Below are positions 13,462 to 18,484 of a stretch of DNA of 27,593 nt, one piece after another; within the stretch, counting starts at the first letter, position 1, and every line of letters starts with the position of its first letter. Made by a program: the position numbers and the translations under genes. Source of the stretch: a virus; the IMG/VR virus record IMGVR_UViG_3300045117_000340, positions 1 to 27,593 of that record. One strand, given 5' to 3'. The notes under the pieces were generated by a model. That model saw only the letters and a list, made by a program, of their open reading frames with translations. It was not told where the DNA came from and searched no databases.

Positions 13462-14439
13462 GTGAATTCCGACCGGTACCGCCTGGTCCGCACGATTTCG
13501 AACCAGGCGCTCGAGGCGATCCTCTCGTTCTTCGAAGCATGGGAGCCCGGGCGCGGGGATGTGCCGCTCGCCCTCGACCTGCTCGGGGCCGAACGCGAGG
13601 CCCGCATCGACGAATTGGCCGTCGCCAGGCAGGTCGCAGACCGCTCCTTCGTCGAAGCGGTCATCGACCGGGTGATGGTCGGGGAGCCAGCCGCCGCGCC
13701 GCCCGGGGACGTGATCCCCTTCGACCCGCGGCTTTGCCCGGGCGAGACGCACCGCTCTGGTGCAGGCTGCGACTGCATCGACATCCCGGTGGTCCGGAAG
13801 TCCCCGGCCGAACCGCCGGGGCCGAAGCCGGCGCAGAGCGCACCCCCCGCGCCGTCCGAGTTCGGCGCCGTGGCCGGGCCGAAGCGCTGTGACGAATGCG
13901 GCACGCCTGGCGCCAGGCTCTGCCACCGGTGCCGGTTCAAGCGTGGGCGGCAGGCCAAGGCCGCCAAGGCCGCGAAGAAGAAGGCCCCGAAGGAGCAGGC
14001 CGCCGATGCGGAGGGCGAGAGTCGTAGCCTGGTCACGCGGCAAGGCACCTGCCGGAAGTGTCGCAAGGGCTTCGAGTACACGACCGGCGCCCGGACCCAG
14101 GGTGAGCGAACCATCTGCCCGCCGTGCGACGGCCAGGTCCGGTGCGTCCATTGCGCCCGGTGGACCCGGGGCTCGGGCGGCATTTGCCCGACGTGCCGGG
14201 CACACGGCAAGACGAAGCTCGACTCGGCGATCGGCCGGCTCCTCGCCGAGCCGGTGCCGGTGATCGCCGAGGAGTACGTGACCGGCGACGGCAGCGGCGG
14301 CCTGGAGCGGGGCCGGACCTACAAGGTCACGCGCCTGGCGCCGGCCGGGTGGCGCGACGGGCAGGACGCCGTCGACCAGCTCGATGGTGAGCCAGACGTG
14401 GACGTCGAGGTGGAGGGCCTGGGTGGCCGGAAGCTCTGA
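13462..14439 (+). CDS. multi-CxxC zinc-ribbon protein in the late region
   Basis: 325 residues from GTG 13462, with AGGAG 6 bases upstream. The N-terminal part (1-100) is helical, with an early GDVIPFDPRLCPGE. A Pro/Ala-rich linker is followed by three cysteine pairs-of-pairs: CDEC..CHRC (about 141-155), CRKC..CPPC (about 196-218) and CVHC..CPTC (about 225-241). Each looks like a zinc ribbon. A Lys/Ala-rich stretch lies between the first and second. The C-terminus is acidic. Not recognised as a known lysis or head protein; probably nucleic-acid or protein binding. It is the first gene after the late promoter at 13208. Confidence 0.75.
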   Translation: MNSDRYRLVRTISNQALEAILSFFEAWEPGRGDVPLALDLLGAEREARIDELAVARQVADRSFVEAVIDRVMVGEPAAAPPGDVIPFDPRLCPGETHRSGAGCDCIDIPVVRKSPAEPPGPKPAQSAPPAPSEFGAVAGPKRCDECGTPGARLCHRCRFKRGRQAKAAKAAKKKAPKEQAADAEGESRSLVTRQGTCRKCRKGFEYTTGARTQGERTICPPCDGQVRCVHCARWTRGSGGICPTCRAHGKTKLDSAIGRLLAEPVPVIAEEYVTGDGSGGLERGRTYKVTRLAPAGWRDGQDAVDQLDGEPDVDVEVEGLGGRKL

Positions 14440-14665
14440 CCGGCCGTTCCGGTTGCCGTTCGATTCGCCGGTCGAGAGCGGCCTGCCGAATGGCGCCGTC
14501 CTGCGCGGTATGCATGCCGCGATATGGCGGGCCTACCAGATCGTCGGCGCCATCTGGCTGTGGGACCTGCGGCTCAATTCGAACCTGGCCCTGCGGGACG
14601 CGTACTACCGGGTGCACCAGGACCTCGAGGACCGCATCGGCCTGCACCTCTACCGCGATCCTTAA
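14423..14665 (+). CDS. small hypothetical protein before the endolysin
   Basis: 80 residues from GTG 14423, which has GGAGGG 6 bases upstream and overlaps the previous stop; ATG 14384 in the same frame has no such site. It includes LPNGAVLRGMHAAIWRAYQI and WLWDLRLNSNLALRDAYYRV, an amphipathic helical pattern. No membrane-spanning segment is clear. The stop lies within the next late-type palindrome region. Function unknown. Confidence 0.55.
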   Translation: MAGSSDRPFRLPFDSPVESGLPNGAVLRGMHAAIWRAYQIVGAIWLWDLRLNSNLALRDAYYRVHQDLEDRIGLHLYRDP

Positions 14666-14705
14666 AGCGCTTTGATCGCCCCCGCCGCCCCCCTTGAACG
14701 ACGAT
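14663..14705 (+). promoter_or_regulatory. candidate late promoter before the endolysin
   Basis: TAAAGCGCTTTG (14663-14674) is followed by ATCG. GACGAT (14700-14705) lies at the same 34-base centre spacing as the site at 13208. The endolysin ATG is at 14724, with AGGAGT at 14712. In Mu the equivalent position is Plys. Confidence 0.55.
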
Positions 14706-14723
14706 CGGCCCAGGAGTCCCACG

Positions 14724-15503
14724 ATGCCCAAGCCCCAGATCACCTGGCTCATCAGCCCGCACCACAACCTGCGGCCGGGCGGGGAAGCCGACGTCGACAC
14801 GATCGTCTTGCACCACACGGCCGGCACCGGCTCGGCGCGGAGCACCGCGCTGTACTTCGCCGACCCCAAGAGCAAGGTCAGCAGCCACTACGTCATCGGG
14901 AAGGACGGCGCGATCGTCCAGTGCGTCCAGGACGCGAAGCGGGCCTGGCACGCCGGGCAGAGCGCCTTCCGCGGCCGGGGCGACGTCAACGACTTCTCGA
15001 TCGGCATCGAGCTGGTCAACCGCGGGGACGGCAAGGACCCGTTCCCGGACCCGCAGTACTGGGCTCTCGCCGACCTGGTCGCCTACCTGATGCAGGCCTA
15101 CCGCATCCCCGCCGAGCGGGTGGTCGGCCACCGCGACGTCGCGCTTCCCCCGGGCCGGAAGACCGACCCTGCGAGCAACTTCGACTGGGCCCGGCTGCGC
15201 CGCCTGGTCGGCGACCGGCAGAAGCCGGCCGCGCCCAGACCCGTCTCGCCCGCCCCGCCGGCCGCCGCGCCGGCGCCAGCACAAGAGAGGACCGTCATGA
15301 ACCTGAATGCCAAGGCCATCCCCGTCGCCCTCAACGTCCTGGCCGGCGTCGCCGTGGCGGCCGAGGCCTCCACGGGTTTCCTGAAGACCTGCTGCGGCGA
15401 GGGCTGGTACTACGTCGCCGTCGGCGCCCTGGCGCTGCTCAACGGGATCTTCATCCTGGCGACCGGCAAGAGCAGCAAGCAACTGGCCGGCAAGGAGGGC
15501 TGA
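14724..15503 (+). CDS. amidase endolysin fused to a C-terminal two-helix membrane segment
   Basis: 259 residues. Residues about 20-165 form an Amidase_2 (AmpD-like) domain: VLHHTAG (His30/His31), VVGHRDVA (His136) and RKTDPASNFDW (Lys146, Asp148). These are the usual zinc and catalytic positions for N-acetylmuramoyl-L-alanine amidase. A Pro/Ala linker (168-188) leads to two hydrophobic helices at about 199-217 and 229-247. A strong internal start lies in frame at 15297. Such a membrane anchor is unlike classic soluble Mu endolysins and suggests a self-exported or holin-linked enzyme. AGGAGT precedes ATG 14724. Confidence 0.92.
   Translation: MPKPQITWLISPHHNLRPGGEADVDTIVLHHTAGTGSARSTALYFADPKSKVSSHYVIGKDGAIVQCVQDAKRAWHAGQSAFRGRGDVNDFSIGIELVNRGDGKDPFPDPQYWALADLVAYLMQAYRIPAERVVGHRDVALPPGRKTDPASNFDWARLRRLVGDRQKPAAPRPVSPAPPAAAPAPAQERTVMNLNAKAIPVALNVLAGVAVAAEASTGFLKTCCGEGWYYVAVGALALLNGIFILATGKSSKQLAGKEG
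15297..15503 (+). CDS. possible internally initiated holin-like protein
   Basis: ATG 15297, in frame in the endolysin, has GAGAGG (15285-15290) exactly 6 bases upstream. It would give a separate 68-residue protein starting MNLNAKAIPVALNVLAGVAV. It has two membrane helices and a charged tail (KSSKQLAGKEG), the size and topology of a class II holin or pinholin. That it is translated is inferred only from the ribosome-binding site. Confidence 0.5.
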   Translation: MNLNAKAIPVALNVLAGVAVAAEASTGFLKTCCGEGWYYVAVGALALLNGIFILATGKSSKQLAGKEG

Positions 15504-15850
15504 TGCTCCAGCTCCTGGCGTCGGGGGATGGAGCGCTCGTCATCCCCGTGAACTGGCAGGCCGTCGGCGTCCTGGCCACCGTGCTCGTCGGCTGGACCAC
15601 GGTGTTGCTATCGGCCATCAAGTGGCTGCTCGACCGGTACGTCAAGACGATCGAGCGGCGGCTCGGGGCGCTCGAAGAGCGCGTCGGAAGAGTCTCCGAT
15701 GTCGAGCGCGATCTGATGCACCTCAAGGCGTCGCTGGCGGACACCTACGTCCGGCGCGAGGACTGGATCCGCTTCATGACGTACATCGACGCCAAGTTCG
15801 ACAACCTGCGGGCCGCGCTCTTCGGGCAGGGAGGGATTTTCCATGGTTGA
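15503..15850 (+). CDS. membrane-anchored coiled-coil protein (DUF2730-like)
   Basis: 115 residues from ATG 15503, overlapping the endolysin stop. One N-terminal membrane helix (VGVLATVLVGWTTVLLSAIKWLL) is followed by a charged coiled coil (VKTIERRLGALEERVGRVSD). The arrangement, and position after the endolysin and before the gp26-like gene, match the DUF2730 family (Mu gp24-like). It could be a holin or spanin component; its exact role is unknown. Confidence 0.75.
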   Translation: MLQLLASGDGALVIPVNWQAVGVLATVLVGWTTVLLSAIKWLLDRYVKTIERRLGALEERVGRVSDVERDLMHLKASLADTYVRREDWIRFMTYIDAKFDNLRAALFGQGGIFHG

Positions 15851-16145
15851 GGAACTGACGCGCGAGCAGCGCGAGGAGGCCCGGTGGCGGCTGCTGCGGG
15901 CGATCTACTTCGGCCGGCCCCTGGCGACGGCCGACACGATCCTCTGGCGGGCGTTGCACGACATCGCGCTGCCGATCACGCTCAAGCAGGTGCGCCAGGA
16001 GCTGGATTACCTGGAGAGCCGGAAGCTGGTCGAGATCAAGAAGCGGCCCGACGTATGGCTGTCCGAGCTGACCTGGCACGGCGTGGACGTCGTCGAGTAC
16101 ACGGTCGACTGCGTGCCCGGCATCGCCCGGCCGCCCCAGGAGTGA
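15843..16145 (+). CDS. gp26-like small winged-helix protein (VpaChn25_0724 type)
   Basis: 100 residues from ATG 15843, overlapping the previous gene. LLRAIYFGRPLATADTILWR, then LKQVRQELDYLESRKLVEIK and a short beta hairpin before LTWHGVDVVE form a small winged helix. The final 'PGIARPPQE' is also typical of the family in Mu-like phages, always just upstream of the small terminase. Function unknown, perhaps in packaging. Confidence 0.85.
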   Translation: MVEELTREQREEARWRLLRAIYFGRPLATADTILWRALHDIALPITLKQVRQELDYLESRKLVEIKKRPDVWLSELTWHGVDVVEYTVDCVPGIARPPQE

Positions 16146-16152
16146 GGCCGCC

Positions 16153-16671
16153 GTGCCCCGTCGCAACTCCGTGTCGCAACTCCCGCCCGAGATCCGGGAG
16201 TGGCTCGACCAGGCCCTGGTCGCGGGGAACTTCTCGGACTACGAACTGCTGACCGAGGAGGTGAAGAAACGCGGCTACCTGATCTCGAAGTCGTCGCTCC
16301 ACCGGTATGGCCAGAGTTTCGAGGAGCGGCTGGGGACGATCAAGCGGACGTCCGAAATGGCCAAGGCCATCAAGGAATCGGTGGGCGACGACGCGGGCGC
16401 GATTGGCGAGGCCCTGACCGCCGTGATGCAGGAAAAGCTCTTCGAGATCGCGATGAAGATCGAGGACCCGGGCGACGTCGAGTTGCCCGCCCTGGTCCGC
16501 GCCATCGCCGACCTGAACCGGACGTCGGTCAGCCAGAAGAAGTGGGCCGCCGAGGTCAAGGCGAAGGCGAAGGCGGCGGCCGACCAGGTCGAGAAGGCGG
16601 CGCGGAAAGGCGGCGCGACCGAAGAGCAGGTCGCCTTCTACCGGCAAGAGATCCTGGGGATCGTGGGATGA
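16153..16671 (+). CDS. Mu gp27-like small terminase subunit (DUF3486)
   Basis: 172 residues from GTG 16153. The DUF3486 pattern is clear: SVSQLPPEIREWLDQALVAG, then helix-turn-helix-like SKSSLHRYGQSFEERL, a long helical middle (TAVMQEKLFEIAMKIEDPGD) and the usual tail EEQVAFYRQEILGI. The family is thought to be the DNA-recognition subunit of Mu headful packaging. Its last 4 bases overlap the DUF4258-like start, which separates it from the large subunit. Confidence 0.93.
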   Translation: MPRRNSVSQLPPEIREWLDQALVAGNFSDYELLTEEVKKRGYLISKSSLHRYGQSFEERLGTIKRTSEMAKAIKESVGDDAGAIGEALTAVMQEKLFEIAMKIEDPGDVELPALVRAIADLNRTSVSQKKWAAEVKAKAKAAADQVEKAARKGGATEEQVAFYRQEILGIVG

Positions 16672-17006
16672 AGTCCCCCGACGAGCCCGACCTGCAGGTC
16701 GGCGGGCTCTACTACCAGGTGTCGAACCACGCCGCCAGGCGGATGCGGCAGCGCGGCATCTCGCGATTCGCCGTGCTCACCGTGCTGATGTTCGGCGAGC
16801 ACAAGCCGGCGCCCGGCGCCGCGATGAGCGTGACCTTCCGCCGGTCCAACATCCCGGCCGGCTGCGAATCCGAGTACGAGCGCTACACCGGGCTCGAGCT
16901 GATCCTGCTGGGCAACGAGGTCATCACCATCTACCGGCGGCGGAAGCGGCTGGCGAAGCGGCGGTCGCCCGGCAAGCCCCACTGGGGCAAGCGGCACCGG
17001 CCATGA
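16668..17006 (+). CDS. DUF4258-like protein inserted between terminase genes
   Basis: 112 residues from ATG 16668. It reads YYQVSNHAARRMRQRGISRF near the start, giving the H-x3-RM-x2-RGI pattern of DUF4258. A beta-rich part follows (LELILLGNEVITIYRRRKR), with a basic tail. DUF4258 proteins have a RelE-like fold and often neighbour toxin-antitoxin genes or occur in phages; activity here is unknown. It overlaps both terminase genes by 4 bases, so it is likely expressed with them. Confidence 0.7.
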   Translation: MKSPDEPDLQVGGLYYQVSNHAARRMRQRGISRFAVLTVLMFGEHKPAPGAAMSVTFRRSNIPAGCESEYERYTGLELILLGNEVITIYRRRKRLAKRRSPGKPHWGKRHRP

Positions 17007-18484
17007 CCGCCGCCTTCGTCCTCCTCCCCTACCAGCGGAGCTGGGTTGCCGACCGGTCCGAAGTCAAGGTCGCCGAGAAGAGCCGGCGCATCGGCCTGTC
17101 GTGGGCGGACTCCTGCGGCGCGGTCCTGGCCGGCGCCCCGGCCGCCGGGTGGCAGGACACCTGGTACATCGGCTACACGAAGGACATGGCCGAGCAGTAC
17201 ATCCTCGACGCGGCCAACTGGGCGCGGGCGATGAACGTCGCGGCCCAGGCGATCGAGGATGCCGAGGACGTCCTGGATGAAGAGGATCGGAAGGCCGGCG
17301 TCAAGGCGTTCCGGGTCACGCTGTCGTCGGGCGCCCGCATCACGGCGCTGTCGAGCCGGCCGCGCAACCTGCGGTCCAAGAAAGGCCGGGTCACGATCGA
17401 CGAGGCGGCCTTCCACGACGACCTGGCCGAACTCCTCAAGGCCGCCCTGGCGCTGCTCATCTGGGGGGCGCAGATCAGCATCATCAGCACGCACGACGGG
17501 GTGGAGAATGCCTTCAACGAACTGATCGGCGAGATCCGGGCCGGGAAGTGGCCGTACGCCATCCACCGGATCACCTTCGACGACGCGCTGGCCGACGGGC
17601 TGTTCCGGCGCATCTGCCTGTCGAAGGGCCAGGAATGGTCGCCGGAGGCCGAGGTGGCCTTCCGCGCCAAGATCTTCGCGCTCTACGGCTCCAACGCCCA
17701 GGAGGAGCTCCTGTGCGTCCCGCGCAACTCGGGCGGCGCCTTCTTCTCGCGGGCGCTACTGGAGTCGCGGATGGTCGACGCCCCGGTGATCCGCAAGCAG
17801 TTCGAGGACGGCTTCGAGTTCAAGCCGGAGCCCGAGCGCGTGGCGGTCGTTCAAGACTGGCTCAACGATACCTTGAGGCCCCTTCTGGCGGCCCTCGAAG
17901 GCACGGCCCGGAGTTTCTTCGGGATGGACTTCGGCCGGACGGGCGACCGGTCGGTCATCGCGCCCATCGTCGCCGGCCAGGCGCTGTCGCGCCGCATCCC
18001 GTTCCTGGTCGAGCTGGGCAACGCCCCGTTCCGGGTGCAGGAGCAGATCCTGTTCTACATCGCGGACCGGCTGCCGATGTTCATGGCCGGGGCGCTGGAC
18101 GCCACCGGCAACGGCGCATTCCTGGCCGAGGTCGCCGCCCAGCGCTACGGCAGCACGCGCATCGCGCAGGTCAAGCTGTCCGAGGAGTGGTACCGCGAGG
18201 AGATGCCGCGCTACAAGGCGGCCTTCGAGGATGACCAGATCAGCATCCCGCGGGACGCCGACGTGCTCGACGACCACCGCGCCATCGTCGTGGTCAAGGG
18301 CGTGCCCAAGATCCCGGCCACCGGCCGCACCAAGGGATCGGACGGCAAGCAGCGCCACGGGGACGCGGCGGTCGCCTGCGCCCTGGCCTGGTTCGCGGCC
18401 CGGCTGGACGTGGCGCCCATCGAGTACCTGTCGCTCGGCCAGACGCGGGTCGGCATGACGCTCGCAGACTACCTGGGGGGATAG
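17003..18484 (+). CDS. Mu gp28-like terminase large subunit
   Basis: 493 residues. ATPase: a modified Walker A around Lys26 (EKSRRIGLSW) and Walker B VTIDEAAF with Asp133/Glu134. RNase H-like nuclease: Asp309 in FGMDFGRTGD, Asp366 in GALDATGNG and Asp454 in RHGDAAVA. The protein cuts and pumps phage DNA, with flanking host DNA in Mu, into procapsids through the portal. It overlaps the DUF4258-like stop and ends directly before the portal ATG. Confidence 0.95.
   Translation: MTAAFVLLPYQRSWVADRSEVKVAEKSRRIGLSWADSCGAVLAGAPAAGWQDTWYIGYTKDMAEQYILDAANWARAMNVAAQAIEDAEDVLDEEDRKAGVKAFRVTLSSGARITALSSRPRNLRSKKGRVTIDEAAFHDDLAELLKAALALLIWGAQISIISTHDGVENAFNELIGEIRAGKWPYAIHRITFDDALADGLFRRICLSKGQEWSPEAEVAFRAKIFALYGSNAQEELLCVPRNSGGAFFSRALLESRMVDAPVIRKQFEDGFEFKPEPERVAVVQDWLNDTLRPLLAALEGTARSFFGMDFGRTGDRSVIAPIVAGQALSRRIPFLVELGNAPFRVQEQILFYIADRLPMFMAGALDATGNGAFLAEVAAQRYGSTRIAQVKLSEEWYREEMPRYKAAFEDDQISIPRDADVLDDHRAIVVVKGVPKIPATGRTKGSDGKQRHGDAAVACALAWFAARLDVAPIEYLSLGQTRVGMTLADYLGG

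Follow-up and report, generated by a model that had tools for sequence, protein, structure and literature searches.

Endolysins with a membrane domain at their C-terminal end have already been published, and so have internal starts in endolysin genes. M4Lys, from phage BSPM4, requires its transmembrane domain (TMD) for lysis and lyses cells without a holin or Sec, and its authors already proposed a recombination of two domains (PMC7143992). In ORF39 of Enc34, the membrane domain at the C terminus consists of two helices (PMC8943055); phage AP1 likewise encodes an endolysin with a C-terminal membrane domain, LysAP (PMC8879335). Such C-terminally anchored enzymes are still a puzzle: no known route takes an N-terminal enzyme across the membrane from a C-terminal anchor (PMC8943055). 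Internal starts, for their part, are common in the endolysins of Gram-positive phages, such as the two-polypeptide enzymes CTP1L, Lys170 and LysIME-EF1 (PMC9430671). A natural holin-endolysin fusion of the TpeE type, in which the holin is N-terminal, has been reported in Clostridium sporogenes (PMC9527704). Finally, the lysis cassette of Mu comprises the SAR endolysin gp22, the spanins gp23/23.1 and the releasin gp25, and has no holin (PMC9239132). In the open PubMed Central literature, our searches turned up no endolysin gene in which an in-frame internal start frees a holin.

Here, we consider a gene that may combine these features. The window, that is, the whole stretch of DNA analyzed, spans 27,593 nt (IMG/VR record IMGVR_UViG_3300045117_000340, positions 1 to 27,593) and, judged by its neighboring genes, is that of a Mu/B3-like transposable phage. 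Its endolysin gene (Table 1) is a single frame running from an ATG preceded by a Shine-Dalgarno (SD) motif (AGGAG) to a stop at 15501-15503, which overlaps the ATG of the following gene (TGATG). It sits in the endolysin position of a Mu/B3-like cassette: as in Mu, the endolysin is followed by a protein with a transmembrane (TM) segment and a coiled coil in the gp25 position, and then by gp26, gp27 and gp28, in that order. The Mu endolysin is, however, a muramidase with an N-terminal SAR domain, whereas that of the window is an amidase with a C-terminal membrane part.

Table 1. Features of the fused endolysin gene and of the genes that follow it (positions in the window)
Feature	Coordinates	Strand	Evidence
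Fused endolysin gene: AmpD-type amidase, Pro/Ala linker and two TM helices, 259 aa	14724..15503	+	
Amidase_2 catalytic domain, residues 22-150	14787..15173	+	Pfam, alignments, Foldseek to AmpD
Pro/Ala-rich linker, residues about 166-191, KPAAPRPVSPAPPAAAPAPAQERTV	15219..15296	+	
Internal Shine-Dalgarno GAGAGG, 6 nt before ATG 15297	15285..15290	+	Duplex energy -7.5 kcal/mol
Putative separate 68-aa two-helix holin-like product (M192-G259), sharing the stop of the full-length protein	15297..15503	+	
TM helix 1, residues 199-219, Ala/Gly-rich, weakly hydrophobic	15318..15380	+	Hydropathy, model
TM helix 2, residues 228-247, more hydrophobic, then a basic C-terminal tail	15405..15464	+	Hydropathy, model
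gp25-position gene: one N-terminal TM and a charged coiled coil; B3 ORF28 homologue, phrog_462	15503..15850	+	
Mu gp26-like small protein, phrog_436	15843..16145	+	
Small terminase, Mu gp27-like	16153..16671	+	Synteny with Mu/B3
Mu gp28-like large terminase (44.5% identity with Mu gp28)	17003..18484	+	

The nature of the enzyme is clear. The catalytic domain matches Amidase_2 (PF01510) with E=1.1e-39 and a score of 136 bits (cut-off 26), and H31, E96, H136, K146 and D148, at the zinc and catalytic positions, are invariant in the amidase alignments. Their counterparts in AmpD are H34, E116, H154, K162 and D164, respectively. AmpD is also the nearest solved structure to this domain (phmmer 9e-25), and the predicted model of the fused protein matches its fold (Foldseek E=5e-14). 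The G+C content at third codon positions is coding-like in one and the same frame over the enzyme (0.97), the linker (0.88) and the tail (0.96). The layout described in the initial annotation, an amidase joined in frame through a Pro/Ala linker to a pair of hydrophobic helices, is thus exact in its coordinates, and Pfam, fold and codon-position G+C agree on it; sequence, fold and frame statistics all speak for the endolysin-hairpin fusion. An assembly or frameshift artefact that united two truly separate genes could be suspected, as related phages keep such genes apart, but three contigs share the junction, the coding periodicity runs in one frame through the linker, and a Pro/Ala composition is typical of genuine interdomain linkers. 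We therefore reject this most improbable explanation on the grounds of frame continuity and replicate contigs.

As they are >99.9% identical to one another, the three contigs that carry the fusion represent a single population. The initial annotation had proposed to look for the same dual-start layout in related phages, and there the outcome was negative, since protein and DNA-pattern scans of viral contigs returned only this population. The amidases of the viral relatives L174-L176 have no C-terminal TM hairpin, and a scan of genome contigs yielded myxobacterial amidases, none with a TM tail. A terminase search through 195 Myxococcota genomes yielded a single prophage of the Mu-like kind, no closer to the window than the viral relatives are. 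The window's amidase is closest to myxobacterial proteins (50-53%), and there is a weak hint in these sequences that the phage may have a myxobacterial host.

The two-helix tail is the distinctive part of the protein. Its hydropathy has two peaks, at about residues 198-219 and 228-247, with Kyte-Doolittle maxima over 19 residues of 1.67 and 1.89, respectively. An equally strong hairpin arises in 63 of 5000 shuffled tails, and a six-frame scan of the window revealed one other ORF with such a hairpin, in antisense orientation. The hairpin is real, and in the predicted structure the tail is modeled with low confidence (pLDDT of about 37-68). Positive charges lie at both of its outer ends (R189 and K197; K249, K252 and K257), with a nearly neutral loop in between; this pattern, read from the sequence, suggests that both ends may lie inside (N-in/C-in). 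The 68-aa product that would start at ATG 15297 fits the anatomy of class II holins, being short and having two TM helices predicted from hydropathy. The succession of a weakly hydrophobic, Ala/Gly-rich helix and a more hydrophobic one recalls, by analogy, the pinholin of phage 21. No homologue of the tail was found by phmmer among all related loci, by tblastn among 50,697 phage records, or in Pfam, NCBIfam and PHROGs, and the latter three gave no match to known holin families. Its designation as a holin consequently rests on anatomy and position.

The position of the internal start is also exact: ATG 15297 falls precisely between the linker and the first helix, and it is separated by the spacer ACCGTC (15291-15296) from the SD motif, so that the SD and spacer encode the last linker residues, QERTV. 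The claim that this start, with GAGAGG six bases upstream, would release the last 68 residues as a hairpin is borne out as far as coordinates and SD strength go. An SD of this strength is reached by 2 of 79 internal in-frame ATGs, 15297 included, by 6/197 internal in-frame ATG, GTG or TTG codons, and by 10 of the 19 presumed gene starts of the phage, some of which are starts of our own choosing. Local mRNA folding is weakest at 15297 among the five starts that were compared. Such an internal start is unusual (about 2.5-3%, or roughly 1 in 40), which amounts to moderate, not overwhelming, evidence. As there is no stop between the enzyme and the tail, the full-length protein must be made; for a second product, the only support is how strong the internal start is and where it lies, and we regard such a product as plausible, at roughly even odds.

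How this arrangement may have come about can be seen in related phages. We gathered related cassettes with terminase, gp26-like and amidase queries, and surveyed the slot just upstream of the gp25-position gene in 77 non-redundant cassettes with enough upstream sequence. A frame with at least two TM segments occupies this slot in 29 of them and a frame with one TM segment in a further 41, both counts being upper bounds because they include spanins and unverified ORFs beside holin-like genes. In L054, a 2-TM gene follows an M15-peptidase-type endolysin gene so closely that its ATG overlaps the endolysin stop. In the Mu-like Myxococcota prophage L192, the amidase gene ends with its own stop 7 nt ahead of a TM gene, after which come a gp25-position gene and a gp26-like gene; the junction of amidase and TM gene, CAGTGAGGGAACCATG, resembles that of the window, CAAGAGAGGACCGTCATG, except that the stop present in L192 is missing in the window. 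An unannotated family of 80-aa 2-TM proteins (MKW.QDSLTGKDNLTYDAAR...) also recurs before the gp25-position gene (L116:3297-3539, L118:3108-3395, L168:2725-2964 and others); the one member tested has no match in PHROGs, and the proteins are candidate holins of Mu-like phages.

Since relatives keep separate TM genes in this slot, the tail looks like a slot gene that was fused in frame and kept its start, and since the L192 junction resembles that of the window apart from the stop, a fusion of two neighboring lysis genes is the simplest history. We infer this history, rather than read it directly, because the tail has no detectable homologue, and for the same reason the tail is tied to the slot genes by position only. 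The suggestion that the tail is holin-like thus stands as regards anatomy, slot position and the lack of any other holin candidate, but finds no backing in sequence homology to any holin.

Our preferred reading, to which we assign a probability of about 0.48, is that of a slot-gene fusion that gives a tethered amidase and, probably, a free hairpin acting as a holin. In an ancestor, an endolysin gene and an adjacent small membrane-protein gene would have merged into one frame, with the ribosome site and ATG of the second gene being retained, this site now being read as linker residues. The gene would then yield the membrane-tethered 259-aa amidase, probably along with a certain amount of the 68-aa two-helix protein in free form. 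The hairpin would enter the inner membrane, its two ends most likely facing the cytoplasm, so that the amidase would be kept on that side; the holin or pinholin would be the short form, either by itself or in one assembly with the long form, and upon triggering the amidase would gain access to the peptidoglycan. The gp25-position protein may help, as the Mu releasin does for the Mu endolysin. More tentatively, and with some doubt, we consider that the nested starts could provide a tethered endolysin together with its own holin, which would co-assemble through their shared membrane domain, so that triggering and delivery would be one event; membrane opening would in that case be tied to enzyme release, as the initial annotation had it.

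If two forms are made, the long one could also act as a brake. Lysis time is governed by the ratio of long to short form in the S genes of lambda and phage 21, and the amidase-hairpin could by analogy be the antiholin-like partner of the short hairpin, their ratio setting the time of lysis. One gene with two starts and a short 68-aa two-helix product, whose first helix is only weakly hydrophobic and whose ends are basic, is consistent with known dual-start holin genes, of which there is mention in the literature (PMC9671378), but the long form would here differ by a whole enzyme rather than by a few residues. We regard a brake as unlikely.

The main rival is that there is a single product, the tail being a C-terminal membrane domain of the M4Lys, LysAP and Enc34 type that delivers the enzyme without a holin, and the internal ATG a fossil or a product of chance. 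It is quite possible, and it has experimental precedent, since endolysins with a C-terminal TMD have been described that lyse cells alone (PMC7143992, PMC8879335, PMC8943055). Because Mu itself uses no holin and relies on a releasin (PMC9239132), the full-length protein could act in the manner of M4Lys, perhaps assisted by the gp25-position protein. Two Mu-like cassettes, moreover, have endolysins with a TM tail and no internal start (L139:2524-3165 and L152:2527-3165). Their N-terminal domain resembles that of M4Lys (phrog_873), a TM segment lies at the C terminus, and they form a second type of TM-tailed endolysin in the Mu-like phage group. No start near the TM comparable to that of the window exists in the C-terminally anchored endolysins that we checked (M4Lys, L139 and L152), which counts against two products. 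Against a single product stands the internal SD and ATG, which beats 77/79 internal ATGs and is placed exactly between the linker and helix 1.

The gp25-position protein resembles a releasin in place and build: it comes after the endolysin and before gp26, and has an N-terminal TM followed by a charged C-terminal domain. Its sequence has no Pfam match to DUF2730 (PF10805), and a profile comparison with Mu gp25 alone gave a probability of only 28%. We do not call it a releasin because PF10805 does not match. In the window and in the further 10 kb or so covered by a co-linear contig, we found no other short multi-TM gene and no convincing spanin lipoprotein, in a genome that may be incomplete. 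The interval 14384-15850 has neither spanin genes nor room for them; Mu and B3 carry spanins there. Should the nested-start reading be true, this would be a phage in which neither a separate holin nor a spanin has so far been detected.

Compared with the described systems, the fused gene shares with M4Lys, Enc34 ORF39 and LysAP an N-terminal peptidoglycan-cutting domain, a C-terminal membrane domain of one or two helices and a phage of Gram-negative type, but their catalytic domains are PHA02564 or GH24 and not Amidase_2, M4Lys lacks a strong internal start, and in the M4Lys and AP1 phages a further candidate lysis or holin gene adjoins the endolysin, whereas none was found here. With CTP1L, Lys170 and LysIME-EF1 it has in common an in-frame internal start with a ribosome-binding site after the catalytic domain and a shared stop; their short product is, however, a cell-wall-binding domain, while the putative one here is a membrane hairpin. 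As in TpeE, a holin-like membrane part is joined to an endolysin in one protein, but in TpeE this part is N-terminal, consists of one helix and an amphipathic helix, and has no described internal start. An anchor that resembles a fused neighbor gene with its own start suggests that C-terminal endolysin anchors may be captured holins, and the start codons of the fused gene offer a simple genetic handle on lysis and its timing.

Further downstream, the cassette shows another particularity. Mu and B3 have no DUF4258-type gene between the small and large terminase genes; in the window, a DUF4258 domain (Pfam E=4.8e-6) lies between them at 16671-17006, within an ORF at 16200-17006.
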